Assembly (NCBI RefSeq): GCF_001045455.1
Contig: NZ_LFNE01000005.1
Span: 186,001 to 250,000, forward strand
DNA: 64,000 nucleotides
Source of the DNA: Chryseobacterium sp. FH2
GTDB lineage: Bacteria; Bacteroidota; Bacteroidia; Flavobacteriales; Weeksellaceae
Reading direction: 5' to 3'
The notes under the pieces were generated by a model. It made no database searches and was not told the DNA's origin. It saw nothing but the letters and a program-made list of their open reading frames with translations. Positions 34,138 through 63,383 of the stretch are shown here, in pieces (positions within the stretch are counted from its first letter, which is position 1; the number at the start of each line of letters is the position of its first letter). A program made the position numbers and the translations under genes.

Positions 34138-36423
34138 TTAGTTCTTGATTAGCTTCTGTTGATAAACAGCTTTGTCAGTAACAATTTTCACAATGTAAAT
34201 ACCTTTTAGAAGGGTACTTACATTTACTTGACTGTTTTCAAGTTTAGTATTCATTAATCGCCCTGAAATGTCATAGACAGCTATATCCAAAACTTTATCC
34301 TGTGTTTTGATATTCAAAATATCTGTTACAGGATTTGGATAAATGCTTAATTGTGTTTTCTTAACCTCAACAGTAGACAGAGCTCCACTTATTGCATTGA
34401 CGGAAAGTGTTTTTTCAACCACTTTCCCATTTGAATTAAAACTTACGACAACTTCTGAAGAGCCATTCCCTTGTGGGGCTAAAACAAGCTCATCATTTGT
34501 ATTGATTACTGCAGAAACAACAGAAGGGTTAGTATTTGATTTTACTGTTTTTACAATAGCTAAAGAAGTATTGTCAGCATCTGTCACGATTGTTTTTAAA
34601 TCAATTGTAGTCGCTGCATTTACATTTATCTGCGAAGGAAAAGCAGAAGCCACAACAGGTAATGTGTTATCAGGAAATACCGTCATTGCAGGAAACCAAT
34701 AATAATCGTTTAATTTTTTAGTATTGATTAAATTTCCAGTGTTGCTGTAAGTATGAACCCAGTTGTTCTGGTAATGTGCTCCGTAGCCGCTTTCTGTTGT
34801 ATTTAGAATCAATTCATCTGTTGTTGGGCTTACACGTAATGCCGCTCCGTAAGGAATTTGCTTATAAGTTCCTGTCTGTCCGGGGATAACAGCAAAGTTT
34901 TCATTAAATGTCTTTGTAGTAACATCAAATTTTACAAGCTGAGTTCCGGACATAAAACTATTCACGGAATTGATCCAGTATAATGTATTATTCTGGTTGC
35001 TTGCTGTAAGACTTCCCGCATTCCAGGCTCCCCAAGAACCAAAATATTTTGTGGTAGGAATATTATAATTTGTGGGAGCAAAAGTTATTGGATCAATATT
35101 TACTAATTTCTGATCCTGAATCGCCCAGATACTTCCATCTTTTGCCTGAACAATGGAATGGAAGGAACCCGCAATTGTAGAAACCACAGTATCGGTATTT
35201 GGATTAATCACCAAAATTCCTGTAGCCTGTTTTATAGCAAAAACATATTGCGAAGTACGAATCATATTCCCTATTTGCCCAGCATAAGCACTTCCTCCGC
35301 CTGTCGTTGGAATCAGGTTTCCCACCTGCATATTGTCTATATCAAATACAAAAATACCGTTCGAAGCACCGATATAACCTTTGTGTTCATTTACACCCAC
35401 AAAAGACCTTCCGTCTCCACCGCCGATATCATTAAAACCAGCAATTTTCTGCATGGTATGAGCATTTGCCACAACTAATCTTCCTCCCGGAGTATATTGT
35501 GTATCACCTCCGTCAGCAGCTTGTTTTGAAATAAAATAAAACTTATCTCCATAGATAGTTCCATACTGTGTAGTCGCTCCAAAAGCCTGATTATTATTTG
35601 CATTGCTGTAAACTCTGTAATTTACATTTCCGCCGTTATCAATAAAATTTACAGAACCGTTTGTATGGCCAAACCACTCTTCGTTTACTATAAAATATCC
35701 GTTGGCATAATCTGTTGAAGTTACATATGGTGAAACGGCGGTCAATGTAGATGAAATTGGGAAGGAGTTCATCCCCGCATTAAAATTCCAAACATCCCAG
35801 GAACCATTTTCCAGAGCCCTTGTACTCGCTCCTACTCCGGAATATCCAAAATCAGTATCAGTAGGATCTTTCACCCAATAAGACCAATATCCGTTATACC
35901 ATCCGGTTCCCCAATGATCATCTGTGTCTGCAACAGTATAATCATCAAAATCATAAGAAGTTGTATTTACGATTCCGTCAATGGGATAATAAGGATAAGT
36001 TACATTCCCGTTTTTGTAAAGAGCATTTGAGTTTACACCGTTTAGATCAAACCCAAGTCCGCCAACAGCACTTCCAAACGATGTCCCCTGATACAATAAT
36101 GTGAAAAATCTGTGATCGGCTTTTGCGATAGCTTTCAACATATCTTCACCTGTTGCATTCCCGTTCCATCTGAAGCCCCAGACTAAAGCATCAGGATTTT
36201 TACCATCATTCCACTGAACGACAAAAGCCGCCTCATTGGAACCTGTTCCTACCCAATACTGGACATCTGCAAAAGTGAAAGTAGTGTTCAAAGCAGTATT
36301 TGTCTGATTCTGATTACCAGAATTCAGTTGGATATCATTTCTGGGCACACCCTGTACTTTTATCTGAGCATTCACGAAAAATGCAAAGAGAAAAAACATT
36401 GTAAAAAGATAAAACTTTTTCAT
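34138..36423 (-). CDS. T9SS-sorted surface protein with a DUF5074-type propeller
   Basis: This encodes 761 residues. A signal peptide ends FFVNAQ. The N-terminal region (about 20-240) is Trp/Gly/Tyr-rich (DALVWGFRWNG). A beta-propeller of repeated blades follows (KFYFISKQ, GIFVFDIDN, GILVINPNTDTVVSTI), as in DUF5074/YncE-like proteins. A short Ig-like domain comes next, then a type A sorting domain (LSIYPNPVTDILNI...GIYIVKI) for type IX secretion. It is the last gene of the riboswitch-controlled operon, so a role in capturing or handing over cobalamin at the cell surface is likely but inferred. Confidence 0.8.
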   Translation of the reverse strand: MKKFYLFTMFFLFAFFVNAQIKVQGVPRNDIQLNSGNQNQTNTALNTTFTFADVQYWVGTGSNEAAFVVQWNDGKNPDALVWGFRWNGNATGEDMLKAIAKADHRFFTLLYQGTSFGSAVGGLGFDLNGVNSNALYKNGNVTYPYYPIDGIVNTTSYDFDDYTVADTDDHWGTGWYNGYWSYWVKDPTDTDFGYSGVGASTRALENGSWDVWNFNAGMNSFPISSTLTAVSPYVTSTDYANGYFIVNEEWFGHTNGSVNFIDNGGNVNYRVYSNANNNQAFGATTQYGTIYGDKFYFISKQAADGGDTQYTPGGRLVVANAHTMQKIAGFNDIGGGDGRSFVGVNEHKGYIGASNGIFVFDIDNMQVGNLIPTTGGGSAYAGQIGNMIRTSQYVFAIKQATGILVINPNTDTVVSTIAGSFHSIVQAKDGSIWAIQDQKLVNIDPITFAPTNYNIPTTKYFGSWGAWNAGSLTASNQNNTLYWINSVNSFMSGTQLVKFDVTTKTFNENFAVIPGQTGTYKQIPYGAALRVSPTTDELILNTTESGYGAHYQNNWVHTYSNTGNLINTKKLNDYYWFPAMTVFPDNTLPVVASAFPSQINVNAATTIDLKTIVTDADNTSLAIVKTVKSNTNPSVVSAVINTNDELVLAPQGNGSSEVVVSFNSNGKVVEKTLSVNAISGALSTVEVKKTQLSIYPNPVTDILNIKTQDKVLDIAVYDISGRLMNTKLENSQVNVSTLLKGIYIVKIVTDKAVYQQKLIKN

Positions 36424-37664: not shown

Positions 37665-38801
37665 TTATTTATATAAAAAAGTGAAATGAGCAGGGATATT
37701 TCCGCCCTCAGTTTTCCATTTGAAATGACCATTTTTATCAAAACAATACACGAATCCCATCGCTACATAATTTCTGGCATCCGTTATATAAATATCTTCA
37801 GTAATTGGGTTTACCATAATTCCATAAGGTGTTTTAATGGCATCTACATATTCCTGATCAATAATTTTATTGGAAATAATTTCTTCAGTTTTCACATCAA
37901 TGATTCCGAAAGTTTTTTTGTAAGAATGGGTATTGTAATTAAATTCATTTCCATAGAAATAAAGTTTATCATTCACAATTGTCATTTCACTTACCGAGAG
38001 ATGAAAATCTTTTTTAATGTTTCCAGTTGCAGCATCAATTAGAAATAAATTTGAAGGAACTGTGTAATAATCACCTCTGGAACTTACATATAGATCACCA
38101 TAATTGTCTTTTTTGAGTCGATGGAGGTTTATAGCAACGTCGATTTTTTTGATTTCAGTAAAGGAGTTTAGATCAATCACAGAAACGGTTTTGTCATAAT
38201 TCGGGACCATATAACCGCCGGAATTGGCAACAAAAAGCTGATTTCCCACAATTTCAATTTCTTCAGGCTGATAACCCACTGTGGCCTGTCTTTGGATAGA
38301 AAGCGAAACAGTATCAATTTCAACTACTTTTCCTTTCGGAGCATTGGGATTGATGTCTACCGGACCTGCATAACTGCTTGCATAAGCCTTTCCGTCTCTA
38401 AAAGCCAGGTATCTGCAATTTTGAAGAGGAATCGTTTTAATTCTTTTTGCCGTTTTAGCATCCAGAACCTCAATTTTATTGGAAACATTCACGACAACAT
38501 ACAATTTGCTTCCGTAGATTTTAATATCATTTCCTACATCACCTAATTCTTTTACTACATTAGGATTGATTTCAGCGTAAATATTTCTATGATATGTTCC
38601 GGTGGTGTAATCGAAAAAGTCAAGGGTACACTTATTACTTCCCATGTTCCCCTCATTTAAAAGATAAAAGCCTTTAATAGCTGTATTTTCGGGCGTTGCA
38701 AGTCCCGGTACAACTTCTGAACGCACAATAATATCATCCGTACGACATGAAACAAGAAAAACCAATGTGAAAAGCAATAGAAAAATATTTAGCTTTTTCA
38801 T
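37665..38801 (-). CDS. BtuG-like beta-propeller lipoprotein (YncE/DUF5074 type)
   Basis: This encodes 378 residues. The signal MKKLNIFLLLFTLVFLVSC ends in a lipobox Cys. The mature part is a seven-bladed propeller pattern with repeated units such as LYVVVNVSNKIEVLDAKT, LFVANSGGYM and DLYVSSRGDYY. In Bacteroides thetaiotaomicron the surface propeller BtuG sits on BtuB and binds cobalamin very tightly. Position next to a TonB receptor behind a cobalamin riboswitch supports the same role here. The start overlaps the receptor stop by four bases (ATGA), so expression is coupled. Confidence 0.82.
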   Translation of the reverse strand: MKKLNIFLLLFTLVFLVSCRTDDIIVRSEVVPGLATPENTAIKGFYLLNEGNMGSNKCTLDFFDYTTGTYHRNIYAEINPNVVKELGDVGNDIKIYGSKLYVVVNVSNKIEVLDAKTAKRIKTIPLQNCRYLAFRDGKAYASSYAGPVDINPNAPKGKVVEIDTVSLSIQRQATVGYQPEEIEIVGNQLFVANSGGYMVPNYDKTVSVIDLNSFTEIKKIDVAINLHRLKKDNYGDLYVSSRGDYYTVPSNLFLIDAATGNIKKDFHLSVSEMTIVNDKLYFYGNEFNYNTHSYKKTFGIIDVKTEEIISNKIIDQEYVDAIKTPYGIMVNPITEDIYITDARNYVAMGFVYCFDKNGHFKWKTEGGNIPAHFTFLYK

Positions 38802-40828
38802 AAAGTGTAGTTTAGAATAAGTTTAAAATTTCTTCCTGGCATCGGATAATTGATTACAACATCATAATACTGATTGAAAATATTATTCATTTCAAGACTT
38901 ACTTTGAACTGTTGTTTATGCCAATTAAATTTTTTCTGAACAGATAAATCATGCGTATACCAAGGCTGAACATAATTGTATTGAATATTATCCTGATTCA
39001 CATCATAACGCTCTCCCACGTACATTGCGCTATAATTAAAACTCCATTCTTTATAATCTGCCATTAACGTAAAAGTTCCGCTATGCCAAGGGGTATAAGC
39101 AATTTGGTTTTTATAAAAACTGTCTTCAGAATTTGTCATATCTCTCGCACTTTGATAGGTATAGGAAAGCAATGGCTTCAACTTCACATTGCCCAACATC
39201 ATATCTGCCTGCATATTCACATCAACACCGATGATTTCTACCCAACCAAGATTCATCATCAGCCAACGAAACATGCTTCCATTAGGTGCTGCGATGATTT
39301 TATCTTCTACTTTATTGTAATATCCGTCTACTTTTGCATAGAAATTTTGCAGAATTGATTTATTAAAACTTTTCTGATAGGTAATACCAATGTCATATTG
39401 ATTCGTATATTCCGGTTTCAGATATGTATTTCCTATATTGGTATAATATAAATCGTTGAAAGTCGGCATCCTGAAAATTCTTTTGTAAAAGGCTCTTAAC
39501 GTAAGTTCAGGAACAATCCCCGGTTGATAGCTCATGAATAAAGCAGGAGACCATTCTCTTCTGTCAGGAGATTTGATATTACGCTCCACATGTTCCTGAA
39601 TAAATGTTCCCAAAACACTTCCAAGCAACTTGAATCTATTCCATTGATATGTAGAGGCAAAAGAAACAAGCGAAGTATAACGCACAGGATAAGAAAAATT
39701 TTCTAAATCCGCATCAAGATTATTAAACTGAAAATCAGCATTTACACTGACATCCCAATTGGTATTAATTGAATATAGATTAGATGAAGAAAGATATATT
39801 TCTCTTTGAATGAAGGTATTATTAGCATATTTAAGGTATTCGGACTTCACAGTATCCAAAAAATGGGTATAGTCATAAGCAAATTTTGCCTTCAACTGAG
39901 TTTCTAGTTTTGGAAATATTTTTTTCCTTACATGAGCCTGAACGAAATAATTTTCATCTTCCAGTCTTGCTCCACGAGCATCAAAACGTCCGTTAACAAT
40001 AGCTGCGGGTAATCCCCTGTTTGAAATATATCCGTAACCACGCACATTCCAGCTTCCATTATTCAAGGCACCGTTTAGACTTGTTTCAAAACGCTTTGCC
40101 TGAATATCAGAATCCTGTCTTTTAGCGATCGTATCATAAGCCTGTTCCCCGTCGGGGTATTTTTTAGCATAACGGTATCTGTAAACCCCATCACTTTGCA
40201 TAAACTCTGAACTGAAACTTGCAGAAACTTTCTGTGAAATTTTTTGTTCCAAACGAAAAGACGGATTAAATAAATCAATCGAAGCATTTTTTAACCTTAT
40301 AACAAGATTTGTTTTTCTATTCCCTTTAAAAGAAGGCATTTTTGGCTGTAAATAAATAGAACCTGATGAACCGAAATCCTTTGCGGGCTGAAAAATTTCA
40401 CTCTTTTGACCATTATATAACGAAATTTCTTCCAAATCATCTAAAGAATATCGACCCAAATCGACTAATCCGTTTTGTGCATTTCCCAATTGAATCCCAT
40501 CATAAAAAACTCCTACATGCTGACTTCCCAAACTTCGGATATTGATCGTTTTCAAACCACCTATTCCTCCGTAATCTTTAATCTGAACTCCTGAAAAATA
40601 CCGTAGAGCATCAGCAACGGAATGACTGTTGAGCCTTTCCAGCTCTTCACCCTGCAGAATCTGGGCTGGAAGGATTTCCTTAAAATTCTTTTTATAAATA
40701 TTGACAGGGATAATTGCCTGTTCCTTTATCGTATCTTTTTTTATTTGAGAAAATAATAGCTGAGATGTTAACACCAAAACTGTGAAAACAACCTTATGAA
40801 ACTGAGATGTAAAAAATTTTGTCACCAT
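38798..40828 (-). CDS. btuB: TonB-dependent outer-membrane receptor, BtuB-like
   Basis: This encodes 676 residues from the ATG at 40828. That start begins a plausible signal (MVTKFFTSQFHKVVFTV ... LLFSQ); an upstream in-frame ATG at 40885 would add 19 residues and is less likely. The plug domain has LPAQILQGEELERLNSHSV, IKDYGGIGGLKTINIRSLGS and VFYDGIQLGNAQNG. The barrel follows and ends LNYTL. It would import cobalamin using TonB energy. The cobalamin riboswitch upstream is the main evidence for the substrate. A hairpin in the message (40825-40860) includes the start codon. Confidence 0.85.
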   Translation of the reverse strand: MVTKFFTSQFHKVVFTVLVLTSQLLFSQIKKDTIKEQAIIPVNIYKKNFKEILPAQILQGEELERLNSHSVADALRYFSGVQIKDYGGIGGLKTINIRSLGSQHVGVFYDGIQLGNAQNGLVDLGRYSLDDLEEISLYNGQKSEIFQPAKDFGSSGSIYLQPKMPSFKGNRKTNLVIRLKNASIDLFNPSFRLEQKISQKVSASFSSEFMQSDGVYRYRYAKKYPDGEQAYDTIAKRQDSDIQAKRFETSLNGALNNGSWNVRGYGYISNRGLPAAIVNGRFDARGARLEDENYFVQAHVRKKIFPKLETQLKAKFAYDYTHFLDTVKSEYLKYANNTFIQREIYLSSSNLYSINTNWDVSVNADFQFNNLDADLENFSYPVRYTSLVSFASTYQWNRFKLLGSVLGTFIQEHVERNIKSPDRREWSPALFMSYQPGIVPELTLRAFYKRIFRMPTFNDLYYTNIGNTYLKPEYTNQYDIGITYQKSFNKSILQNFYAKVDGYYNKVEDKIIAAPNGSMFRWLMMNLGWVEIIGVDVNMQADMMLGNVKLKPLLSYTYQSARDMTNSEDSFYKNQIAYTPWHSGTFTLMADYKEWSFNYSAMYVGERYDVNQDNIQYNYVQPWYTHDLSVQKKFNWHKQQFKVSLEMNNIFNQYYDVVINYPMPGRNFKLILNYTL

Positions 40829-40860
40829 TAGCTCATTCAGAATAATGATGACGCTAATGG
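40825..40860 (-). promoter_or_regulatory. hairpin holding the btuB start codon
   Basis: CCATTAGC (40825-40832) is the exact complement of GCTAATGG (40853-40860), with an inner TCATT/AATGA helix. In the message the 3' arm contains the AUG at 40828-40826, so folding would hide the start codon. This fits translational control by the upstream riboswitch. Confidence 0.6.
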
Positions 40861-40949
40861 ATATAAGAATACAACGACCAAGCACAGCCGTAACTGCACA
40901 AAATCAATCATGTCCTAAGCTTTATTCCACGAAAGCGTCAAACGTTAAA

Positions 40950-41118
40950 TCTTCTGGCAGGTCTTCTGACTTACTCCGTTTTTGAAACCCTTCCCATTAA
41001 AAACAGTGGATATTATCTTCAAAAACTTGTTTAGTGGAGCTTACAGCAGCGGGTCTGTTCCGGATTTTCACCGGATTCCCTTTTAAGCGCTTTTTATGGC
41101 TCACCAGATTCCGGCAAA
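40950..41118 (-). ncRNA. cobalamin riboswitch
   Basis: Read on the minus strand, the leader contains GGGAATCCGGTGAAAATCCG, then ACCCGCTGCTGTAAGC, CCACTG, GGGAAGG, and the closing CAGAAGACCTGCCAGA. These are the conserved core elements of the B12 riboswitch in the right order. It precedes the TonB receptor gene by about 120 bases. When bound to cobalamin it is expected to lower expression of the four-gene uptake operon. Confidence 0.93.
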
Positions 41119-41222
41119 GATAGAAAATAAATCACAGAAACAAAATAAGATTTAAATTATTGATTTTCAATGAAATAAAAACAAATCATTTCGCTAACAT
41201 TTTAACGAAATGATTTGTTATG

Positions 41223-50585: not shown

Positions 50586-53500
50586 TTATTGATTAATTAA
50601 AGAGTTGATGTTGATAACCGTCTGGTTCACCTGTTGAATAGACTGCAGATACTTTAGTTCAATATCCGTAGCTGTCTGTAAGGCAAATAAATATTCCACA
50701 TAAGAAATTTCACCCGTTTTATAGCCTAACTGAGCTGCTTTAGCGATACTTTTGGCATTAGGAACCGCCTGATTCAGATAATAATGATACTGCTGAACAT
50801 CCTGTTGGTATTGATTCAACGAATTTCTTAGTTGAATATCCAATTGCTGCTGCTGAAATTGGGCATTGCTCTCTTCCATTTGCCTTTGTAACTCCAAAGA
50901 TTTAATTTTGGCTTTCGTCGCTCCAAAAGTCAAAGGAATTGCGACTCCGACACTTATAGAATTGAATCTGTCTCCTGCTCCGTAATATCTTTCCTGTCCT
51001 CTCAAGGTGTGGAAACCAATTAAAGATTGACTGGTGTAGCCAATGCTGAAGTCGGGCAAACCTTGAGCTTTTTCAACATTTTTATTTTTTTCCAGCACTT
51101 CCATATTTTGCTTAAAAACCCGAATGGAAGGATGGTTGGCAACTGTTGTACTGTCCAACAGGTGTTCGGCTTTTAAAGGCTCATAGTTCTGAGAAAACGG
51201 AATTGAAATTTCCTCATTAACATTTAATAAACCCTTCAAATTTTTATAGGCATTCTCCAAATAGACTTTATTTTGCTCAAACAGTAAATTGACTTCCCCT
51301 TTCCTGGTTTCTGCTGTATTGATTTCAATTTTTTTAATATCTCCGGCTTTGAATCTTACTGTTGCAATTCTTATAAAATCGCCATATAAACTGTCTAAAT
51401 ATTGAAGTTTGGTTTGATTATACTGCAGATATTCAATCTGATAAAAATAACTTCTGACCTGTTTTATCAATTCGTTTGCAGTCAGCTCTCTTTCCAATTT
51501 TTTACTTTTAATTTCTGACTGAATCAGTTCTTTTCTGGCTTTAAACAAAGTCGGAAACGGGATACTTTGAGAAATAGCAAACGACTGGTCAAATTTCGGA
51601 CTGTTATATTGTCCCAATTGCGCACTAAAATCTAATTTCGGGAGCTCTTTTGCCGTAGGCTGTAGTACTTCCGAAGATTGAATATTTAAATCTTTTGACT
51701 TAATAGACGGATTATTTTTCTGCATCAGCTCTATCGCTTCACTCAAAGAAATCTCTCTTGAATTCTGTGCTTTAATATTTTGACTTAAACATAAAAAAAC
51801 TGTCAAAACAACGACTGTTAAAGGTTTTCTGAGAAGTTTATTTTTCAAATTAATTTTAGGATTAAAAATGATGTACAACATTGGCAATACAAATAATGTA
51901 AGGAAAGTTGCTGAAACCAGACCGCCGATAACCACCGTCGCCAAAGGTTTCTGAACTTCCGCTCCAGCGCTTGTACTTACCGCCATCGGTAAAAATCCCA
52001 AAGATGCTACGGTTGCTGTCATTAAAACAGGTCGAAGTCTGGTTTTTGTCCCTTCAATGACTCTTTTTAACACATCGGAAACACCTTCTTTTTCCAATTG
52101 GTTGAATGTTCCGATCAATACAATTCCATTAAGAACCGCCACTCCGAACAATGCAATAAATCCTACTCCAGCGCTTATACTGAAAGGCATTCCTCTTAGC
52201 AAAAGCGCAAAAACACCACCAATCGCACTCATCGGAATCGCTGTAAATATTAAAATCGCCTGTTTAAACGAATGAAATGTAAAATACAGCAACATAAAAA
52301 TCAATAAAAGCGATATCGGGACTGCAATCATCAAACGTTGGCTTGCTTCTTTTAAATTTTCAAACTGCCCTCCATAAGTGAAGTAATATCCGGGCGGAAG
52401 CTTTACCTCTTTTTCTAATCTTCGTTGAATATCTTTCACTACACTCTCTACATCTCTTCCTTTTACATTAAAACCAACAACTATTCTGCGTTTCCCAGCC
52501 TCACGGCTGATTTGAGCGGGACCTAATTTATACTCAATATTAGCAACTTGGGACAGAGGAACCTGAATCCCTGTATCTGTTGGAACCATTAAATTGTTGA
52601 CATCCTCAATATCTGTTCTGTAAAGGCTGTCCAATCGCACCACCAAATCAAAACGTCTTTCATTTTCAAAAATCTGCCCGGCTATTTTTCCGGCAAATGC
52701 AGTACTCAACACATCATTGACATCTTCTACATGTAAGCCATAATTAGCAATTCTCGTTCGGTCATACGTTACATTAATCTGTGGCAAACCTCCTACTCTT
52801 TCAACCTGAGGAGAAGTAGCTCCCTCTACATTCTGAATCACCTTACTTACTTTATCGACATATACAGACAGGGAATCCATATTTTCACCAAAAATTTTAA
52901 CGGCAACATCTTGTCGGATGCCCGTCATCAATTCATTAAAACGCATCTGAATCGGTTGATTTGCTTCAAAGAATACACCGGGAATTAATTCCAGTTTTTC
53001 TGTAATTTCTTCTGCTAATTCCGTGTATGGTTTTTTTGATTTCCATTCTTTCTGTGGCTTTAAAACAATGATTAAATCGGTGGCCTCAGGCGGCATCGGG
53101 TCAGTGGGAACTTCCGCAGAACCTGTTTTTCCAACCACCATTTTTACCTCATCAAACTGCTTGATAATTCTGGAGGCCTGCATTGAAGTTTCGATACTCT
53201 GGCTTAAAGAACTTCCCTGTGGTAAAATACAATGAAATGCAAAATCACCTTCCTGTAACTGAGGAATAAATTCCCCTCCCATTCTACTGAAAATCAATGC
53301 TGATATAGAAAATAAAACAACTGTAACGGCAACAATGATGTATTTAACCTTAATCGCTTTTTGCAATAAAGGTTGATAGGTTTTTTGCAGTCTAATCATC
53401 ATTTTATCAGAAAAATTTTCTTTATGTGAACTCTTTTTTGAAAGAAAAAGCGCGCACATCATCGGAATGTAAGTAAGCGAAAGAATTAATGCTCCAAGAA

Positions 53501-54950
53501 TGGCAAAACTTACTGTTTTGGCCATTGGAGAGAACATTTTTCCTTCAATTCCAGCGAGGGTAAGAATCGGAATGTAGACAATTAAAATAATAATTTCTCC
53601 GAATGCTGCGCTTCCACGGATTTTTGATGCCGATAAGAAAACTTCTTCATCCATTTCGCTTTGCGAGAGCTTCTGCATAGATTTTCTTAATCCTAAATGA
53701 TGCAAAGTAGCCTCAACAATAATAACGGCTCCGTCGACAATTAATCCAAAATCAATCGCTCCCAAGCTCATTAAATTGGCACTTACTCCAAACACATTCA
53801 TCATTCCCAACGCGAATAAAAGTGACAATGGAATTGCTGATGCAACAATCAATCCCGCTCTGAAATTGCCGAGAAACAGGACTAAAACAAAGATGACAAT
53901 CAAGGCTCCTTCTATTAAGTTTCTCTCCACCGTTCCAATAGCACGGCCAACCAAATCTGTTCTGTCTAAAAACGGTTCAATAACAATATCTTCAGGAAGA
54001 GATTTCTGAATAGTCGGTATTTTTTCTTTAATTCTATTGACAACATCATTACTGTTTGCACCTTTTAACATCATTACAACACCACCAACAGCATCCGTTT
54101 GTCCATTATACGTCATGGCTCCGTATCTCGTTGCATTTCCGAAACGAACATCTGCAACATCTTTAATGAAAACCGGGATAGTTCCTGAATTTTTTACTGC
54201 GATATTCTTCACATCTTCCAAAGATGTCACCAGGCCAATTCCACGGATAAAGTAAGCATTCGGCTTTTTATCAATATAAGCTCCTCCTGTATTTTGATTA
54301 TTCTTTTCTAACGCTAAAAATATATCAGAAATACTGACTCCCATTGCTTTTAACTGATTGGGATTAACGGCAACTTCATATTGTTTTAATTCTCCTCCAA
54401 AACTGTTGACCTCAGCCACTCCTTCTGTTCCGTACAACTGCCGGGCAACAATCCAGTCCTGCATCGTTCGAAGGTCTTTTGCGTTATATTTTTTTTCACT
54501 TCCTTTTTTAGGATGTAAAATATACTGATAGACTTCTCCCAAACCTGTACTGACAGGCGCCAGTTCAGGAATTCCGATCCCTTTTGGGATATTTTCTTCA
54601 GCCTGTTTTAATCTTTCATTGATTAATTGACGGGCAAAATAAACATCGACTTTATCTTTAAAAACAACGGTAATTACTGACAACCCAAAACGTGAAACAC
54701 TTCTGGTTTCTTCTATATCAGGAACATTAGCAATGCTTTGCTCAATCGGAAAAGTCACCAGTTGTTCAACTTCCTGTCCTGCCAAAGTAGGACAAACGGT
54801 AATGATTTGAACCTGATTGTTTGTAATATCAGGTACAGCATCAATGGGAAGTTTTGTGGCACTCCATACTCCCCAGATGATGAGTAACAAGGTCATTATT
54901 CCAATGACAATCTTGTTTTTAATACTGAATTTTATAATTTTATCTAACAC
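50586..54950 (-). CDS. CusA/CzcA-type RND metal pump fused to a TolC/CusC-type outer-membrane factor
   Basis: This encodes 1454 residues; a normal CusA is about 1040. Residues 1 to about 1035 are a complete RND pump with the acidic helix-4 motif in AIDFGLIVDGAVI and a Met/Glu-rich porter domain. A second hydrophobic stretch (PLTVVVLTVFLCLSQNIKAQ) ends at residue 1062 and looks like a signal peptide with the AQ cleavage site. From 1063 on is an outer-membrane efflux protein (SLSEAIELMQKNNPSI...VEYLFALQTATDIELKYL). One gene thus supplies the inner and outer parts of the efflux tripartite system. Substrates are probably Cu, Ag, Zn, Co or Cd. Confidence 0.92.
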   Translation of the reverse strand: MLDKIIKFSIKNKIVIGIMTLLLIIWGVWSATKLPIDAVPDITNNQVQIITVCPTLAGQEVEQLVTFPIEQSIANVPDIEETRSVSRFGLSVITVVFKDKVDVYFARQLINERLKQAEENIPKGIGIPELAPVSTGLGEVYQYILHPKKGSEKKYNAKDLRTMQDWIVARQLYGTEGVAEVNSFGGELKQYEVAVNPNQLKAMGVSISDIFLALEKNNQNTGGAYIDKKPNAYFIRGIGLVTSLEDVKNIAVKNSGTIPVFIKDVADVRFGNATRYGAMTYNGQTDAVGGVVMMLKGANSNDVVNRIKEKIPTIQKSLPEDIVIEPFLDRTDLVGRAIGTVERNLIEGALIVIFVLVLFLGNFRAGLIVASAIPLSLLFALGMMNVFGVSANLMSLGAIDFGLIVDGAVIIVEATLHHLGLRKSMQKLSQSEMDEEVFLSASKIRGSAAFGEIIILIVYIPILTLAGIEGKMFSPMAKTVSFAILGALILSLTYIPMMCALFLSKKSSHKENFSDKMMIRLQKTYQPLLQKAIKVKYIIVAVTVVLFSISALIFSRMGGEFIPQLQEGDFAFHCILPQGSSLSQSIETSMQASRIIKQFDEVKMVVGKTGSAEVPTDPMPPEATDLIIVLKPQKEWKSKKPYTELAEEITEKLELIPGVFFEANQPIQMRFNELMTGIRQDVAVKIFGENMDSLSVYVDKVSKVIQNVEGATSPQVERVGGLPQINVTYDRTRIANYGLHVEDVNDVLSTAFAGKIAGQIFENERRFDLVVRLDSLYRTDIEDVNNLMVPTDTGIQVPLSQVANIEYKLGPAQISREAGKRRIVVGFNVKGRDVESVVKDIQRRLEKEVKLPPGYYFTYGGQFENLKEASQRLMIAVPISLLLIFMLLYFTFHSFKQAILIFTAIPMSAIGGVFALLLRGMPFSISAGVGFIALFGVAVLNGIVLIGTFNQLEKEGVSDVLKRVIEGTKTRLRPVLMTATVASLGFLPMAVSTSAGAEVQKPLATVVIGGLVSATFLTLFVLPMLYIIFNPKINLKNKLLRKPLTVVVLTVFLCLSQNIKAQNSREISLSEAIELMQKNNPSIKSKDLNIQSSEVLQPTAKELPKLDFSAQLGQYNSPKFDQSFAISQSIPFPTLFKARKELIQSEIKSKKLERELTANELIKQVRSYFYQIEYLQYNQTKLQYLDSLYGDFIRIATVRFKAGDIKKIEINTAETRKGEVNLLFEQNKVYLENAYKNLKGLLNVNEEISIPFSQNYEPLKAEHLLDSTTVANHPSIRVFKQNMEVLEKNKNVEKAQGLPDFSIGYTSQSLIGFHTLRGQERYYGAGDRFNSISVGVAIPLTFGATKAKIKSLELQRQMEESNAQFQQQQLDIQLRNSLNQYQQDVQQYHYYLNQAVPNAKSIAKAAQLGYKTGEISYVEYLFALQTATDIELKYLQSIQQVNQTVININSLINQ

Positions 54951-55766: not shown

Positions 55767-55776
55767 AAGGTACCAT

Positions 55777-55815
55777 AAAAAATAGCCTTTGCAATTGCAA
55801 AGGCTATTTTTACAA
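55777..55815. terminator. bidirectional terminator after the susD-like gene
   Basis: AATAGCCTTTGCAATTGCAAAGGCTATT is palindromic; its halves each contain TAGCCTTTGCA or the complement. It has an A run to the left and a T run to the right. It ends the minus-strand SusD gene (stop at 55810) and can also end the small plus-strand frame. Confidence 0.85.
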
Positions 55816-57312
55816 ATTCGGATTATTCTCCACCTCCTTCTGCGGAATAGAAAACAAATAATATCTACTATTCGGAGCAAAAGCAGACTGGTCAGGAAAA
55901 GCATAAATTGTATGACCTCTTCCGTTTACACTTTTGACGGTTCCATCAGGAGTAGTGATCTGCACCTGAATTGCCTGTCCGATTGAATTGGTATAAGGTT
56001 TCCTTACCACAGTTCCCTGCGTTCTGATAATGTCCGACAAAGAAAATCCTTCTCCGAACAATTCTTTTCTTCTTTCAATTAAAACTTCTTTAACTACATT
56101 TTCCTGAGTCAAAGAACCGATATAAAGATTGGCATTTCTAGCTGATTTCAGTTCATTCAAAACGGCTACTGCATTGGTTATATTTCCGTTTCTTGCTTCA
56201 GCTTCAGCTTCAATTAAATACATTTCGGCTGCTCTCATATAGACGATATCGGCAATTAAATTGGCTTTAAATTTGAACTTAGCATATCTCAGAAGCCCTT
56301 CCCTGCCCGGAAGTCCGTCCCAAGAAAATAAAGAATATCGAATATCATTCGTATCAAACAAATCTTTAAAATAAGGATCTGCCATAAAGCTGTAATAATA
56401 ACTTCCCGAAGACGAAACATCTAAAAAGTGGAAAGCATAACTCTCACTCGACTGTTCCTGCGTTTGCCCGTGTCCCCAAATCCATTCTCCGTTGCTGATA
56501 TCATTGAAGCCTTCCTTATATTTTTCGGCAGTCATCAAAGGATATCCCGCTCTCGCAGCTTTTGCAGCAGTTGCAGCTTTTGCCCATTCTCCTGTATTCA
56601 GATATGTTCTTGCTAAAAGTCCGTTTACAACAGCTTTATCAATTTTATCTTTATTGTTTCTTGTATAATTTTGAAGCAATTGATCAGCATCTGTCAAATC
56701 ACTTTTAATCAAAGTATAGATTTCTTCCAAACTTGCTCTTTTGTTCGGCTTAGAATTAGTGGTTGTCGGTTCTGTATAAATTGGTGCCGTTAAAGCCGTT
56801 TTATCTTTTAAATAACTAAACTGATAAAAACTCGCCAAATTCAGATAACAAAAAGCACGTAATGTTTTTGCCTGACCTTTCACCTGATTTTTCTTTTCCT
56901 GACTTCCTTCAGTAGCATCTATTCTTGCAATAACATTATTCATATTGTTGATTGTAGAATATAATAAGCTCCAAATAAAAAGCGGTCGGCTTCCCGTATT
57001 ATTCACTAAATCTGTGAAAGCATAAGCATTCGGAAATCCATATTTATTGGTCAAAACCGCTACATCGCTTCCCATCGCATCACTCGTTCTCAAAACCGTT
57101 GAGTAACCGATGTTGGCATACGTTGTTCCATCATCATTAAATTTCGCCCAAGTTCCATTAATTACCGTTTCCGCATTATCAGCAGTTTTAAAAACTTCTT
57201 CTTCATTCGCCTGATTAGTTGGAGCCGTTTCCAAATCACTTTCACAACTTACCAAAGATAAAGCAGCGAATAAAGCAAAGGATAAATATTTTATTTTTTT
57301 CATTGTTTTCAT
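55810..57312 (-). CDS. SusD/RagB-family nutrient-binding outer-membrane lipoprotein
   Basis: This encodes 500 residues. The signal ends LSLVSC at about residue 23. Helical TPR-like repeats carry the SusD pattern: AKTLRAFCYLNLASFYQFSY near residue 150, NGLLARTYLNTGEWAKAATAA, and the C-terminal EVLIERRKELFGEGFSLSDIIR. SusD acts as a lid on its SusC partner and binds the ligand at the cell surface. The gene lies 10 bases downstream of the susC-like gene and shares its SAM-riboswitch leader, so the ligand is probably a methionine- or sulfur-related compound rather than a glycan. Confidence 0.93.
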   Translation of the reverse strand: MKTMKKIKYLSFALFAALSLVSCESDLETAPTNQANEEEVFKTADNAETVINGTWAKFNDDGTTYANIGYSTVLRTSDAMGSDVAVLTNKYGFPNAYAFTDLVNNTGSRPLFIWSLLYSTINNMNNVIARIDATEGSQEKKNQVKGQAKTLRAFCYLNLASFYQFSYLKDKTALTAPIYTEPTTTNSKPNKRASLEEIYTLIKSDLTDADQLLQNYTRNNKDKIDKAVVNGLLARTYLNTGEWAKAATAAKAARAGYPLMTAEKYKEGFNDISNGEWIWGHGQTQEQSSESYAFHFLDVSSSGSYYYSFMADPYFKDLFDTNDIRYSLFSWDGLPGREGLLRYAKFKFKANLIADIVYMRAAEMYLIEAEAEARNGNITNAVAVLNELKSARNANLYIGSLTQENVVKEVLIERRKELFGEGFSLSDIIRTQGTVVRKPYTNSIGQAIQVQITTPDGTVKSVNGRGHTIYAFPDQSAFAPNSRYYLFSIPQKEVENNPNL

Positions 57313-57322
57313 TTAAAATGGT

Positions 57323-60238
57323 TTAAAGAGTAGCCTGAAGTCCAAAAGTTACCGTTCTCATCGCCGGATATCTGTAATAAGTCGTTCCGTCTAATGTTTG
57401 TTCCGGATCCATTCCTTTATGCTTGTAGAAAGTCAATAAGTTTTCCCCCTGTACATAAATTCTGAATTTTTTCAAGCCTAATTTTGCAAAATAATCGGAT
57501 GGAAGTGTATAACCGATACTTAGATTTTTTAATCTTGCATAGGTTGCAGAATATAAAAATCTTGATGAGGTTGATGTCCAGTTATTCGTAGTTGTGCTCA
57601 ATGCCGGAACATTTGTATAAGGGTTTTCAGGAGTCCACCTGTTAAGCATTTCAGCGCTCCACGACCTTCCGGCAAGATTTCCGCTTGACATAATTGCGGT
57701 GTAATCTGTATCTAGCACTTTACCGCCAATCCTGAAGGATAATAATGCCGATAAGTCAAAATTCTTATAATTAACGCTCGTTGTAATTCCTCCAACCAAT
57801 TTCGGGAGTGCCGAACCTTGAATTTCCCTCGTAGCTTTAGCATATTCCGAAGTTGTACCTTCTACTGTTTGTCCGTTTGCATCTGTCGTTACGGTTTTCC
57901 AAAGTGGCTTTCCGTTATCGGGATCTACTCCAGCCCAAGTCGGAAGGTAAAAATCATATACTGAACCTCCTACAGTTAAAAGTTTTGTTCCACTGATAAT
58001 AGATGTTTGTGGCAATTTTGTGATTTTATTGCTTAAAGTGCTTAAATTCACATCGACATTCCATTCAAAATCTTGTGTTTTAAACGGTGTTGTGAATAAT
58101 GAAAATTCAAAACCTGTATTTTGTAATGTTCCGATATTTGCCTGAAACCCTGTAAATCCTAAAGAAGGAGCCATCGGCATTTCAAACAGTAAATCCTGAC
58201 TTTGGCGCTTGAAATATTCTATATTTCCTTTAATTCTATTATTAAGAATTGTGAATTCAAGACCTAAATTTAAATTGAGATTTGTCTCCCATTTCAAATC
58301 GGGTGTCGGAAGATTGCTTGCAACGGTTCCCGGCTCACCTAGATTATTGTAAAATTTATATAAACTTTGATATGCGTAATATGTTTTAAGCTTATCATTT
58401 CCCTGGCCTCCATAACTTGCACGCAGTGTCAGTTGATTGAAGAAATTTAAATCCTTGATAAAATCTTCATTGGAAGCTTTCCAAGAACCACCGACTGACC
58501 AGAAAGCTCCCCATCTTTTTTCCGGTGAAAATCTGGAAGAAGCGTCAGATCTTACCGATCCTGAAACGAAATATTTATTTTGATAATCATATTCCGCTTT
58601 GCCTAAGAAACTTAGAAGTCCCAATTTATCACTGTTTCCCGTGAAACCTCCTAACAGAGCAGCCGCATCCGGTTCATAATAATACGGAAGTGAAAACTGA
58701 GTTCTGTTACCCGAAATCGTCTGATACTCATAATGATAAAATTCTTGCCCAGCCAAAAGGTTGATATGATGCAGCCCAAATTTCTTATCATAGGTCAAAA
58801 TATTACTCGTTGTATAAGAAAGTGTTCTGGAATTAGTTCTCGTTACTGCCCCGCCAATTTCCGTGCCTTCACCAAGCAATGGATTTGTGTAATAATGACC
58901 GTTATAATTCACCAAATCAACAGAAAAACTCGTTTTAAATTTTAATTCAGGCAAAAATGTAAATTCTGCAAATCCTTTTCCTGAAAAGTTATCTTCTCTG
59001 TTTTCATTTTTATCTAAAGGTAAGGTTGCCGCTAAATTCTGATTTTGTAAAGCGTTTGTCGGCCTGTATTTTCCGAAGTCATAAATATAGTTCCCACCGG
59101 CATCCAGTTTATAGCTTCCATCTGCGTTTCTTTCATAGTAAGGATAAAATGAAGGAATACTTCGCCCCACATTAATAATATTCTCCGAACTGGAATCAGA
59201 AGAAGGCGGTGCCAATTGGATACTGTTCGTATAGCTTAAATTGGCCCCAACGTTCAGCCATTTTTTAACTTCAGAATTTAATTTTAACCTCGTACTGTAT
59301 TTTTTGAACCCAGACTCAATCGCAATTCCTTTATCATCCAAATAGCCTAATGAAAAATAGTAATTGCTTTTCTCACTTCCGCCACTAACATCCAAATCTA
59401 CCTGATTTCTGGAAGCAACACGCTGAAGAACATCTGCCCAGTTATCATTCCACAGAGCGTTTGCACCCGGCAGTAATTTTCCGTCTGTTCCTACCGGTTT
59501 AGGAAAATTGGCTCCGTATGGATTAATTCCCAAAGCATTCACTAAACCATCTGTCGCCATCTGAGCTGCCTGCTGAGCCGCAATGTTGTTAGCAACAAAT
59601 CCGTTTCTCATCGCTTCCCAATACAATTCGAAATACTGGTCTGTACTTACCTGGGCATAATCTTTTACTGCTCTCGAGGAGAATCCCTGACTGATATTAA
59701 AATTAATTCTGGACTCTCCTTTTTTACCTGATTTTGTCGTAACAATGATAACCCCGTTTGCCCCTCTTGAACCGTACAAAGCACTGGCAGTAGCATCTTT
59801 CAGGACACTAATAGATTCAATATCGTTTGGGCTGATGGTATTGATATTTCCGTCAAAAGGAAGTCCGTCTACGACATACAAAGGATCACTTGAAGCACTT
59901 AAAGAGCCTATTCCACGGATACGAACAGAGGCCACAGAACCAGGCTGCCCGGAAGAACTTACCGCCTGAAGCCCAGGAACCTGACCTTCCAATGCTTTTG
60001 TAATATTGGTAACAGGCCTGTTGTTGATTTTCTCACTCGAAATTGTTGCCACAGAACCTGTGTAACTGTTTTTTTTAGCTTTACCGTATGCTACAATCAC
60101 CACCTCATCAATCTCTTTTTCATGAAGTGTATCTTTTTTTGCTTCCTGCCCCTTCACATTAGCAATTCCTAAGAAAAACACAGCGACTGGCGGAATCCAA
60201 ATTTTAAAATTAAATGAATTTTTGCTAATCATAATCAA
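57323..60238 (-). CDS. SusC/RagA-family TonB-linked outer-membrane transporter
   Basis: This encodes 971 residues. A signal peptide ending NVKGQ is followed almost directly by the TonB box region (DEVVIVAYGKAKKNSYTG); the carboxypeptidase-like N-terminal extension of most SusC proteins is absent. The plug has SVRIRGIGSLSASSDPLYVVDGLP, cut here as VRIRGIGS and PLYVVDGLPF, then ISVLKDATASALYGSRGANG. The barrel ends VTFGLQATL. It would import a ligand captured by the SusD partner. The 180-base leader contains a SAM-I riboswitch. Confidence 0.94.
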   Translation of the reverse strand: MIMISKNSFNFKIWIPPVAVFFLGIANVKGQEAKKDTLHEKEIDEVVIVAYGKAKKNSYTGSVATISSEKINNRPVTNITKALEGQVPGLQAVSSSGQPGSVASVRIRGIGSLSASSDPLYVVDGLPFDGNINTISPNDIESISVLKDATASALYGSRGANGVIIVTTKSGKKGESRINFNISQGFSSRAVKDYAQVSTDQYFELYWEAMRNGFVANNIAAQQAAQMATDGLVNALGINPYGANFPKPVGTDGKLLPGANALWNDNWADVLQRVASRNQVDLDVSGGSEKSNYYFSLGYLDDKGIAIESGFKKYSTRLKLNSEVKKWLNVGANLSYTNSIQLAPPSSDSSSENIINVGRSIPSFYPYYERNADGSYKLDAGGNYIYDFGKYRPTNALQNQNLAATLPLDKNENREDNFSGKGFAEFTFLPELKFKTSFSVDLVNYNGHYYTNPLLGEGTEIGGAVTRTNSRTLSYTTSNILTYDKKFGLHHINLLAGQEFYHYEYQTISGNRTQFSLPYYYEPDAAALLGGFTGNSDKLGLLSFLGKAEYDYQNKYFVSGSVRSDASSRFSPEKRWGAFWSVGGSWKASNEDFIKDLNFFNQLTLRASYGGQGNDKLKTYYAYQSLYKFYNNLGEPGTVASNLPTPDLKWETNLNLNLGLEFTILNNRIKGNIEYFKRQSQDLLFEMPMAPSLGFTGFQANIGTLQNTGFEFSLFTTPFKTQDFEWNVDVNLSTLSNKITKLPQTSIISGTKLLTVGGSVYDFYLPTWAGVDPDNGKPLWKTVTTDANGQTVEGTTSEYAKATREIQGSALPKLVGGITTSVNYKNFDLSALLSFRIGGKVLDTDYTAIMSSGNLAGRSWSAEMLNRWTPENPYTNVPALSTTTNNWTSTSSRFLYSATYARLKNLSIGYTLPSDYFAKLGLKKFRIYVQGENLLTFYKHKGMDPEQTLDGTTYYRYPAMRTVTFGLQATL

Positions 60239-60317
60239 TTTTGTTTAACATTAATTTAAACATCAGCCCTTATAAAAAAGACAACAAAGGGCATCAATAA
60301 ATATGATTAACCTATTG

Positions 60318-60413
60318 CTTATCTTTCCTTTTTTGAGGCTGAATGTAACACCTTGCGATTTGCAGGTTGTTAAGATTTCACAGGGTCAGTTCCCTCCATC
60401 TTTCTTTATAAGC
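60318..60413 (-). ncRNA. SAM-I (S-box) riboswitch
   Basis: On the minus strand the core elements appear in order: CTTATAAAG, GATGGAGGGAACTGACCC, TGTGAAATCTTAACAACC, AAGGTGTTACATTC, and the closing GAAAGATAAG. The first and last segments pair as helix P1. These match the S-box consensus (AGAGxxGGxGGGACTGGCCC, ATGAAxCCxxGGCAACC, GGTGCxAATTC) with a few changes. It lies 80 bases upstream of the SusC start. High SAM should reduce expression of the susC/susD-like pair. Confidence 0.9.
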
Positions 60414-60430
60414 CGATCGAAATATGGATG

Positions 60431-60461
60431 CAAAGCTAAAAACAATTAGTCTACAAAACAA
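60431..60461 (-). promoter_or_regulatory. promoter of the riboswitch-susC-susD transcript
   Basis: On the minus strand TTG (60459-60461), a 20-base spacer and TAGCTTTG (60431-60438) fit the Bacteroidota consensus. Transcription would start about 12 bases before the riboswitch. Confidence 0.7.
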
Positions 60462-60468
60462 GTAGACT
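60448..60468. promoter_or_regulatory. inverted repeat over the -33 box
   Basis: AGTCTAC (60448-60454) and GTAGACT (60462-60468) are exact complements with a seven-base centre. The repeat covers the -33 element of the susC promoter, where a bound regulator would affect initiation. Confidence 0.5.
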
Positions 60469-60663: not shown

Positions 60664-61914
60664 TTAATATAATCGCTGAATAGAAATATAAACTTCCAAG
60701 GTATTATCCGCAGTAGAAGGATCCGAGGTTGTATTGCCATTTCCATTACCTGTGGCAATAGATTTATTATCAATACGCAGTACATAATAAACCCTGTACC
60801 ATTTGTTATCAGCCGTGGTTACATCAAAAGTTACTGTCTCATTTCTTCCTTGGGTTAGGTAAACACCATCATCAAACTGAGCATAATTATTTGGCAAAAT
60901 TAATAGGTTTGCTCCGTGTGAATCTCCCGTATGAGTTGACACTTCAGAAACCCAGACTTTCGCATTCGAAGCTGTAATATTATAAAGACGAGGATCCATA
61001 TTTGTACTTGCACCGGTTCCATCAAATGCTCCCGGGGAAGTTATGAAAGCATCAATTCTAAATGTATTATTCAGCACAGGCAAATCTGTAAGATATTGAC
61101 TTAATAGAAATGACGATGTTTTACGAGGAATAGATGAATGATAAAACACCAAATCCCCTGGGGAAATTCCATCACCTGCTCCAATGGTCGCACTACAAGT
61201 TTGTCCCCCGATTGTTAACGGAAAAGTTGTAGAAACAGGGCTTGTCACAGTGGGCGTTCCTGAAATTGTATAGCTAAGTGTCCCTGAACCGGAATTAAAA
61301 TTTCCTGCAGATAAAGTTGCGGTAAGCCCATTTACAGGACCAATAGTCTGAGCCGGATACACCCCTCCATTTCCTCCTGTGTAAGGAACATTCATCGCAC
61401 CCGTAAAAGGAACTCCTGCTGTATACGTACTTGGAGAAAGCGTAATTGCGTTACAAGTAATGCTTCCTAAAGTTCCAGGCGCTAATGAACCATTGTTAAA
61501 TGTTCTCCATTCCGTTCCATTCCAAAAAACATAACCGTTGTAGGTAAGTCCGCCGGTTCCTAAATTATAAACCAATAGTCCCGTTGCAGGTGAAGGTATA
61601 GTCACCTGGTCCGTTTGAGAAGTCAAAGCAACCTTAGGACCAAGAAACCCTTTTTTATTACCCGACGGTAAACCATCTACATTGATATCGAGAATTGCAG
61701 ATGCATTTGGTGTATTTGTCCCAATACCTACACTTCCATTCGAAGTAACAACAAAATCGTTAGACTGCTGTAATGCAGTTGAGACTCCTGTCACAGCATT
61801 ATCTCTTGATCCATCTACATGAAAAATGCCTTGAGGATTAGCTGTATTAATCCCAACTTGCGTATACGCTGATACAAAAGCTAAACTTGTAATTAATAAA
61901 ATAATTTTCTTCAT
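60664..61914 (-). CDS. exported surface protein of unknown function
   Basis: This encodes 416 residues. A signal peptide ends near AYTQ, followed by the repeated motif VGINTANPQGIFHVDG and later VGIGTNTPNASAILDI, the GIGT/NTP pattern seen at the N-terminus of many Bacteroidota surface or fibre-like proteins. The middle (about 150-250) is Gly/Thr/Ser-rich and resembles Ig-like repeats. The C-terminal 160 residues form a separate beta-rich domain (TFDVTTADNKWYRVYYVLRID). No sorting domain is visible. Ligand and role are unknown. Confidence 0.7.
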   Translation of the reverse strand: MKKIILLITSLAFVSAYTQVGINTANPQGIFHVDGSRDNAVTGVSTALQQSNDFVVTSNGSVGIGTNTPNASAILDINVDGLPSGNKKGFLGPKVALTSQTDQVTIPSPATGLLVYNLGTGGLTYNGYVFWNGTEWRTFNNGSLAPGTLGSITCNAITLSPSTYTAGVPFTGAMNVPYTGGNGGVYPAQTIGPVNGLTATLSAGNFNSGSGTLSYTISGTPTVTSPVSTTFPLTIGGQTCSATIGAGDGISPGDLVFYHSSIPRKTSSFLLSQYLTDLPVLNNTFRIDAFITSPGAFDGTGASTNMDPRLYNITASNAKVWVSEVSTHTGDSHGANLLILPNNYAQFDDGVYLTQGRNETVTFDVTTADNKWYRVYYVLRIDNKSIATGNGNGNTTSDPSTADNTLEVYISIQRLY

Positions 61915-62390: not shown

Positions 62391-63383
62391 ATGAGCTCAA
62401 AACATGAACAAATAGAAAAATTAAAACATGAACTGATGGACAGGTATGTCATTCTTATGATTAGTATCTTAGGAATTTATGCCGGTATTTTTACTTTCTA
62501 TATTCATGATAAAGTGATGTCTTGGTATTTAACTGCCGGGCTGATTTTTATAGGCTACAGTTATTCACTAATGCGGAAAAGATTTCCTACCAATACAATT
62601 GTTCATTTGTATTTAATCCTAGCGCCTTTATATAATTTTTATGTAATGCTTGCTTTTTGGAATAATTCCGTTGCAAGTTTTTGCTGGTTATTACCTATTC
62701 CATTAGGAGCCTATATCTTTTTTACCAAAAAAGAAGTATTGGCTTATACATTTTATATTCTGTTTATCATTATAATCGGCTATATTATTGCCAATAATCT
62801 GCAAATCGATTTTCCCAAACACACTCAAAAAGAAGTAATATTCACAGACACTATTCTGATTACGTCAAATATATTAGTAGTTACCTTGCTAATATATTAT
62901 AAAGATAAAATCAAAAAACTTGAAATATTATCTGAATTCAGCCAAACCGAATCAATACAAAAAGAGAAAATAACTGTCACAGAGTTTATGTCAGAGGATA
63001 ATGATGCCGACAATGAAAATATGGAAAAGCTTTTCTCCAAAATAGAAGAATCTATGACAGCAAATATGCTTTTTAAAGACGTTAAATTTAATCTTTCAGC
63101 ATTGAGCGTTGCGTTGGAAGTTAATAGTACTTATATATCCAAAGCTATTCGGTATAAGGGTTTTCCAAATTTCAACAACTATCTTAATACTTATAGAATA
63201 AACTATGTAAAAAAGTTGTTTAACGAAGTTGATTTTCAGAAAACCACGTTGATGTATGTTTATACAGAGGCCGGATTTTCGAACCAATCGACATTCAATA
63301 GGGTTTTCAAACAAATTGAAGGAATTACGCCTTCAGAATATTTCCAGCGAAATCTCAAAAACAATAGCAAAAGCAGTGTTTAA
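62391..63383 (+). CDS. membrane-anchored AraC-family regulator
   Basis: This encodes 330 residues. The first 185 contain six hydrophobic segments (from YVILMISILGIYAGIFTFYI to NILVVTLLIYY), then a short charged linker. A C-terminal AraC/XylS helix-turn-helix domain follows at about residues 225-320: LSALSVALEVNSTYISKAIR, then the second helix-turn-helix TEAGFSNQSTFNRVFKQIEGITPSEY. Such proteins are thought to read a membrane or envelope signal and bind DNA directly from the membrane. Targets are unknown; aroQ starts 30 bases later but is probably independent. Confidence 0.85.
   Translation: MSSKHEQIEKLKHELMDRYVILMISILGIYAGIFTFYIHDKVMSWYLTAGLIFIGYSYSLMRKRFPTNTIVHLYLILAPLYNFYVMLAFWNNSVASFCWLLPIPLGAYIFFTKKEVLAYTFYILFIIIIGYIIANNLQIDFPKHTQKEVIFTDTILITSNILVVTLLIYYKDKIKKLEILSEFSQTESIQKEKITVTEFMSEDNDADNENMEKLFSKIEESMTANMLFKDVKFNLSALSVALEVNSTYISKAIRYKGFPNFNNYLNTYRINYVKKLFNEVDFQKTTLMYVYTEAGFSNQSTFNRVFKQIEGITPSEYFQRNLKNNSKSSV

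Follow-up and report, generated by a model that had tools for sequence, protein, structure and literature searches.

SusC/SusD pairs of the outer membrane are mostly glycan importers. For most pairs the ligand has yet to be identified, and carbohydrate enzymes encoded nearby usually serve as the basis for a guess; a metabolite-sensing RNA on such a pair would give a direct clue to the substrate class without any help from neighbouring enzymes. RagAB of Porphyromonas gingivalis, composed of a SusC-type barrel and a SusD-type lid, is a peptide importer, and we know of no SAM riboswitch on ragAB.

Riboswitch-controlled TonB import is already known. The TonB receptors behind cofactor riboswitches (cobalamin with btuB, TPP with BT_2390) are outer-membrane importers, each shut off by the final product of the pathway it supplies; according to the accessible text of one source, BT_2390 transports thiamine across the outer membrane and has a TPP riboswitch (PMC7366714). 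For the SAM-I riboswitch, or S-box (RF00162), the accessible parts of two sources (PMC2211319, PMC3766115) name methionine genes and inner-membrane methionine transporters as targets. The former also places S-boxes in Bacteroidetes/Chlorobi fragments; the latter covers SAM regulons in 255 genomes, and neither TonB nor SusC occurs in its accessible text. PMC4239095 gave no match to the words TonB, outer membrane, Bacteroid and SusC. Among the literature matches listed, judged by title and the start of the abstract and drawn mostly from outside subscription journals, there is no earlier report of a SAM riboswitch on SusC/SusD; a 2008 review on new TonB substrates may touch on the matter.

Here, we describe a locus of Chryseobacterium sp. 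FH2 in which an S-box stands ahead of a SusC/SusD gene pair, and a palindrome, newly described here, lies over the promoter of the pair. The locus resembles described S-box loci in its full-length match over the gathering score, in its position in the leader of a gene that can be linked to methionine, and in its rival downstream pairings, and differs from them in that an outer-membrane SusC/SusD pair is controlled. Unlike the receptors behind cofactor riboswitches, the RNA here would bind SAM, and a lidded SusC/SusD pair takes the place of the lone receptor. The findings suggest that an importer of the sugar-uptake type, standing behind a SAM-sensing RNA in Chryseobacterium and Elizabethkingia, takes up methionine or another sulfur nutrient.

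A SAM-I Aptamer Ahead of a SusC/SusD Gene Pair

The window, i.e., the whole stretch of DNA analysed, is 64,000 bases long. Its first-pass annotation had placed an S-box riboswitch, preceded by a promoter, in the leader of a susC-like gene (60318-60468) and proposed a check with the Rfam SAM model. The scan bears this out: RF00162 matches over its full length (model positions 1-108 of 108) with 66.6 bits against a gathering score of 44.4 bits, and with an E value of 2.5e-13 computed for 64,000 bases, both strands and 4227 families (Table 1). The putative promoter has a -7 element that, by eye, fits TAnnTTTG, the Bacteroidota consensus given in the accessible text of PMC7366714. The annotated span covers the aptamer, the -7 element and a palindrome that was left unnamed there; both this palindrome and a second S-box unit described below had been missed. 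The aptamer and the susC start codon are 83 nt apart, with susC as the first and susD as the second gene downstream. Because relatives conserve an ATG at 60232-60230, susC is taken to begin there, and a TTG at 60238 was rejected as its start.

Table 1. Positions of the features discussed, in the numbering of the window.
Feature	Position	Strand	Basis
Perfect palindrome AGTCTAC-N7-GTAGACT, candidate operator in the -33 region of the susC promoter	60448-60468	-	sequence
-7 promoter element TAGCTTTG	60438-60431	-	by eye, fits Bacteroidota consensus TAnnTTTG
SAM-I (S-box) riboswitch aptamer	60414-60316	-	RF00162, full length
Hairpin GCCCTT/AAGGGC between aptamer and start codon, proposed expression platform	60266-60293	-	helix covarying in relatives
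susC, SusC/RagA-type TonB-dependent outer-membrane transporter	57323-60232	-	TIGR04056 (778.8 bits), PF07715
susD, SusD-type surface lipoprotein (lid)	55810-57312	-	PF07980, PF14322
Inverted repeat and T run directly after susD, possible transcript end	55776-55810	-	by eye
Gene of a 416-aa protein	60664-61914	-	no Pfam or NCBIfam match
AraC-type regulator gene	62391-63383	+	
RND permease/efflux fusion gene	50586-54950	-	
Cobalamin riboswitch	40939-41123	-	93.9 bits
Genes behind the cobalamin riboswitch	38798-40885, 37665-38801, 34138-36423		

The earlier assignment of the two genes as a SusC/SusD pair also stands, as the gene of a SusC/RagA-type barrel is followed by that of a SusD-family lipoprotein, with TIGR04056 and TIGR04057 as well as PF07980 and PF14322 over their cut-offs. 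A simple terminator scan did not report the inverted repeat behind susD. The closest PDB sequence to SusC is RagA (E 3.9e-120), followed by a SusC homolog (6.9e-105). For SusD, the closest solved sequences are 3snx and 3lew, both deposited as SusD-like carbohydrate binding protein, and RagB is only distantly similar (E 1.9e-9). The likeness to RagAB therefore holds for SusC and does not extend to SusD.

The pair might instead import a sugar or a sulfated glycan, with SAM merely reporting the growth state or a need for sulfur, e.g., for sulfate freed from the glycan. Such a cargo would agree with the mostly glycan-importing habit of SusC/SusD pairs and with the labels of 3snx and 3lew, but the latter are the depositors' names. 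The annotation had remarked that neither a glycoside hydrolase nor an anti-sigma gene is nearby, and no glycoside hydrolase, sulfatase or anti-sigma family was matched among the nine proteins scanned (SusC, SusD and seven neighbours); the glycan-active enzymes that characterise a PUL are absent from these seven neighbours. Considering also the composition of the S-box targets presented below, we regard glycan import as unlikely.

The other neighbours of the pair include a gene whose single 1454-aa frame joins a CusA/CzcA-type RND permease to an outer-membrane efflux domain; relatives of about 1435 aa are found downstream of susD in five other loci. The genes of the 416-aa protein and of the AraC-type regulator separate the S-box from aroQ. 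At the 13 other orthologous loci, no gene of 80 aa or more intervenes between the two, bar a small frame in one of them.

Conservation of the S-Box with the Gene Pair

A survey of 148 genomes of the family gave a SusD match at E 1e-40 or better in 52 genomes and, counting the window's own, a SusD at 67% identity or more in 14, the next best reaching 38%. All 13 further orthologous loci carry an S-box ahead of susC and on its strand (62.1-68.4 bits), which makes 14 of 14 with the window. Among named genomes, a scan with the SusD alignment yielded the best 80 of 83 relatives, 78 of them labelled Chryseobacterium and two Elizabethkingia, and at all 80 loci RF00162 matches at the susC leader, with 61.5-69.7 bits. 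The two sets overlap, with at least 9 of the 13 loci common to both. Retention at the same place in relatives (13 of 13 further loci, 80 of 80 named ones) thus joins the score in assigning the element to RF00162. The S-box is kept in every orthologous leader examined, and we therefore reject the idea of a glycan importer that acquired an S-box by chance. In a sample of 20 genomes of the genus, all 11 without a SusD orthologue have one S-box, eight of the nine with an orthologue have three, and the genome of the window has two.

The association is bounded. RF00162 gave no match in the 19.9 kb around two distant SusD relatives taken from the order and phylum surveys, G377 (48% identity) and G817 (45% identity), which shows that the S-box is not shared by the SusD family at large; SAM control therefore belongs to the lineage and not to the protein family. 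The G817 pair lies behind redoxin and M28 peptidase genes, and a PALP enzyme gene, cysteine-synthase-like by eye, is found near the G377 pair; little weight is given to either neighbourhood.

Layout of the Leader

An alignment of 81 susC leaders, 80 of them distinct, allowed the RNA helices to be examined pair by pair. In the aptamer, 90.4% of the cells are paired, at least 15 of the 31 pairs are invariant, and the covariation score is reached by 87 of 500 shuffles (two projected P1 pairs are misplaced). Covariation is not visible here because the aptamer is too conserved; its core is invariant across the leaders, with drifting flanks. Between the aptamer and the start codon, two helices of four and eight pairs have 95.9% of their cells paired in the 81 leaders, compared with 29.9-49.9% for slid versions. 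Two-sided changes occur in six of these 12 pairs, four of them in the 8-pair helix, and the 22 two-sided cells were matched by none of 500 shuffles, in a comparison biased towards the structure, as it was taken from one of the tested sequences.

Alternatively, the 5' arm and loop of the 8-pair helix can be engaged by the 3' strand of P1. This rival pairing has 96.9% of its cells paired versus 44.5-63.7% when slid, a figure that 61 of 500 shuffles also reach, and shows a two-sided change at one pair only. By a coarse count of minimum-energy folds, the downstream hairpin appears in all 81 leaders when P1 is forced, and the rival pairing appears in 56 of 81 when the 5' strand of P1 is held open. 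As expected of an S-box platform, a hairpin would compete with an alternative pairing of P1, with little covariation in the latter. The aptamer, the covarying helices and the rival pairing of P1 together form the layout of an S-box OFF switch, and we infer from this layout that the leader binds SAM and is switched off at high SAM.

A T run follows the leader hairpin in the Elizabethkingia leaders and is absent in this genome. A terminator scan of the window and of two further loci (L176 and L136) did not report the leader hairpin because its loop of about 10 exceeds the limit of 8 set for the scan. Could the aptamer be a relic, or a variant too weak to switch any longer, that shared descent has preserved? 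The susC-leader S-boxes indeed score below the remaining S-boxes of those genomes, which reach about 74-86 bits, and no clear terminator T run is seen in Chryseobacterium. Nevertheless, the match exceeds the gathering score at all 80 named loci, the core stays constant amid its drifting flanks, and the downstream helices covary; a non-switching relic seems highly improbable.

Other S-Box Units and Targets

The S-box is present in 246 of 296 genomes over the phylum. The first reading frame was labelled after 151 S-boxes (62 + 89), a non-random sample composed of the best-scoring matches and of 39 genomes mostly with several matches (90 of 101 matches examined). The labelled targets are mostly methionine synthesis genes, and nearly all of the nameable ones are methionine or sulfur genes. 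No label was obtained for 32 of the 151, some of which Pfam later named (class-V aminotransferase, AhpC/TSA proteins, PAPS reductase, MetE). With these 32 unlabelled, no glycan gene occurs among the named targets, which speaks against a glycan cargo for the pair.

Several single targets were noted along the way. The S-boxes of L243, L269, L295 and L332 precede a class-V aminotransferase (cysteine-desulfurase-like), an AhpC/TSA peroxiredoxin, a PAPS reductase and an amino-acid permease. Four loci from a single genus of the order (L250, L251, L254 and L256) have the S-box before the gene of a 329-aa protein, which in L250 combines DUF4369 with an AhpC/TSA thioredoxin-like domain.

SusC is the S-box target three times in the labelled sample, namely in the window and in G610 and G560, two genomes from a single genus that belongs to a different family of the class, whose S-boxes score 87.7 and 79.6 bits and lie about 320-350 nt before susC. 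Their SusD belongs to PF12771 and not to PF07980, and their SusC is about 25% identical to that of the window over the aligned part. The search for further susC/susD pairs with S-box leaders, which the first-pass annotation had proposed, thus yielded a non-orthologous pair, and for this reason SusC/SusD seems to have come under an S-box on at least two occasions.

A second S-box transporter unit was found in eight genomes of the genus (L077-L084). It consists of a TonB receptor of 806-862 aa or similar, not of the SusC type, followed by an APC amino-acid permease; the families were scanned in L077, and the remaining seven units were assigned by clustering. Relatives of this receptor follow an S-box in 13 of 30 loci of the family survey. 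As far as its two S-boxes show, the genome of the window lacks the receptor/permease unit.

A Palindrome over the Promoter

The palindrome of the susC promoter, 19-21 bases long, has one exact match in the window and none in 100 shuffles, even when three mismatches are allowed there. Its core GTCTAC-N7-GTAGAC is found with at most one mismatch in 78 of the 80 named leaders, the two Elizabethkingia leaders being off by three and four positions. It also accompanies the S-box of the second transporter unit in all eight genomes (seven with one mismatch, one with two), where by eye it spans the -7 box. The four met-operon leaders examined do not contain it (four or more mismatches).

Across 16 genomes of the genus, 23 exact palindromes were counted compared with four for the reversed control; four of the 16 genomes have none. 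Three of the 23 sites are in the genome of the window, 16 were placed in other genomes and four are unplaced. The 16 placed sites comprise seven at 1-Cys peroxiredoxin/MscS genes, five at susC, one at cupin/Kbl, two near EamA transporters and one within a gene. Those near the EamA-family transporter genes belong to L337 and L340, two genomes without susC and susD.

The three exact sites in the genome of the window are that in the susC leader and two upstream of other genes, 72 nt from the gene of a NIL-domain protein and 18 nt from that of a 1-Cys peroxiredoxin. Looser sites, each recorded in this genome alone, lie before metN (one mismatch), which is followed by genes matching a permease and the NlpA lipoprotein family, and in the gap that separates the APS reductase gene cysH from an Rrf2 gene (two mismatches). 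Further hand-picked looser sites precede a TonB receptor gene and a metallo-beta-lactamase/rhodanese gene or fall between cupin and glycine C-acetyltransferase genes. The sites followed were the three exact ones, three of the six with one mismatch and four with two, the looser ones being picked for AT-rich spacers; two two-mismatch sites, C2:39302 and C8:92986, were dropped as intragenic. At up to two mismatches, this genome shows no enrichment (56 sites versus 122 for the control). The loose matches not being enriched, there is moderate evidence that the palindrome may mark a sulfur regulon in this genome.

The palindrome is presumably a protein binding site, i.e., a candidate operator. It could also be a transcription terminator or a chance repeat. 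The terminator scan does call it terminator-like in the window and in L136, which together with the lack of loose enrichment favours the latter possibilities. On the other hand, aroQ diverges from susC in 13 of 14 orthologous loci, and therefore no upstream gene on the susC strand ends at the palindrome there; moreover, the excess of exact sites over the control tells against a chance repeat, and the second S-box unit holds its -7 box, by eye, inside the palindrome. A terminator or a chance repeat appears rather doubtful to us, and we prefer the operator.

As to the protein that would read it, two Rrf2 proteins of this genome exceed the cut-off, and the one encoded beside APS reductase is, on gene position only, a candidate regulator; its gene lies at L110:11676-12158, with the true start probably internal. 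The arrangement recalls the CymR-type Rrf2 regulators of Firmicutes, as the palindrome recurs between the adjacent genes of the Rrf2 protein and of APS reductase, and CymR structures are among the Rrf2 matches. The difference from CymR is that the Rrf2 protein here is a candidate binder by its position and is one of two in the genome.

Proposed Control and Cargo of the SusC/SusD Pair

Taken together, these elements suggest the following course of events. The RNA would start at the TAnnTTTG promoter, whose palindrome probably serves an Rrf2-type sulfur regulator as operator, and the susC transcript would fold the S-box aptamer. With SAM bound, P1 would hold and the downstream hairpin would form, so that the transcript is stopped or the start blocked; without SAM, the 3' strand of P1 would pair with the 5' arm and loop of the hairpin, and SusC and SusD would be made. 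The pair would then take up methionine, Met-containing peptides or another organosulfur nutrient. We consider it probable that a SAM-I riboswitch turns this importer off at high SAM and that its cargo is of that kind.

The first-pass annotation had argued that control by SAM implies a ligand feeding methionine or SAM supply. The parts of this argument open to testing agree with it: the S-box is fixed with the pair, S-box targets are sulfur genes, the receptor/permease unit exists, palindromes accompany sulfur genes, and G610 and G560 repeat the arrangement. For the ligand itself, the control elements, the likeness of SusC to RagA and the neighbours of the distant pairs together favour methionine, a Met-containing peptide or another organosulfur compound. 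Counted for an organosulfur importer under an OFF switch are the aptamer, its 13 of 13 and 80 of 80 loci, the helices and the rival pairing, the S-box counts in the sample of 20, the second unit, the palindrome sites, G610 and G560, and the nearness to RagA. Counted against it are the missing T run in this genome and the terminator scan that reports the palindrome instead; the near lack of covariation in the rival pairing and its presence in 56 of 81 folds; aptamer covariation that does not exceed shuffles; the loose palindrome matches; a SusD near carbohydrate-labelled structures and distant from RagB; and the S-box-free distant relatives.

A more far-reaching reading sees in SusC/SusD a dedicated organosulfur importer with two stacked sensors, an operator read by an Rrf2 protein and a SAM-I riboswitch, on a scavenging branch reached at least twice independently; here we hold the balance to be even. 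With both an operator and a riboswitch on transporters but just the riboswitch on the biosynthesis operon, the cell would be able to distinguish a shortage of sulfur from a shortage of SAM. If an organosulfur cargo is true, SusC/SusD systems serve the scavenging of sulfur amino acids besides glycan uptake, and riboswitch leaders may be used to assign ligands to orphan SusC/SusD pairs and TonB receptors.

Another cargo compatible with SAM control would be a cobamide, a methyl donor or some other cofactor or metal complex that methionine synthesis requires. The other S-box of this genome stands before a met operon that appears, by eye, to depend on B12 (MetH-like genes), and the accessible literature assigns outer-membrane cobamide uptake in Bacteroidota to TonB receptors. 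This genome, however, has a separate TonB receptor behind a cobalamin riboswitch, and the palindrome common to the metN and cysH sites points to sulfur, which leaves a cofactor very unlikely as the cargo, and an organosulfur compound preferred.

The cobalamin riboswitch merits a remark of its own. It lies ahead of the TonB receptor gene, and DUF5074 proteins, one of them with a secretion tail, are encoded after the receptor; the whole set is probably a B12 uptake unit.
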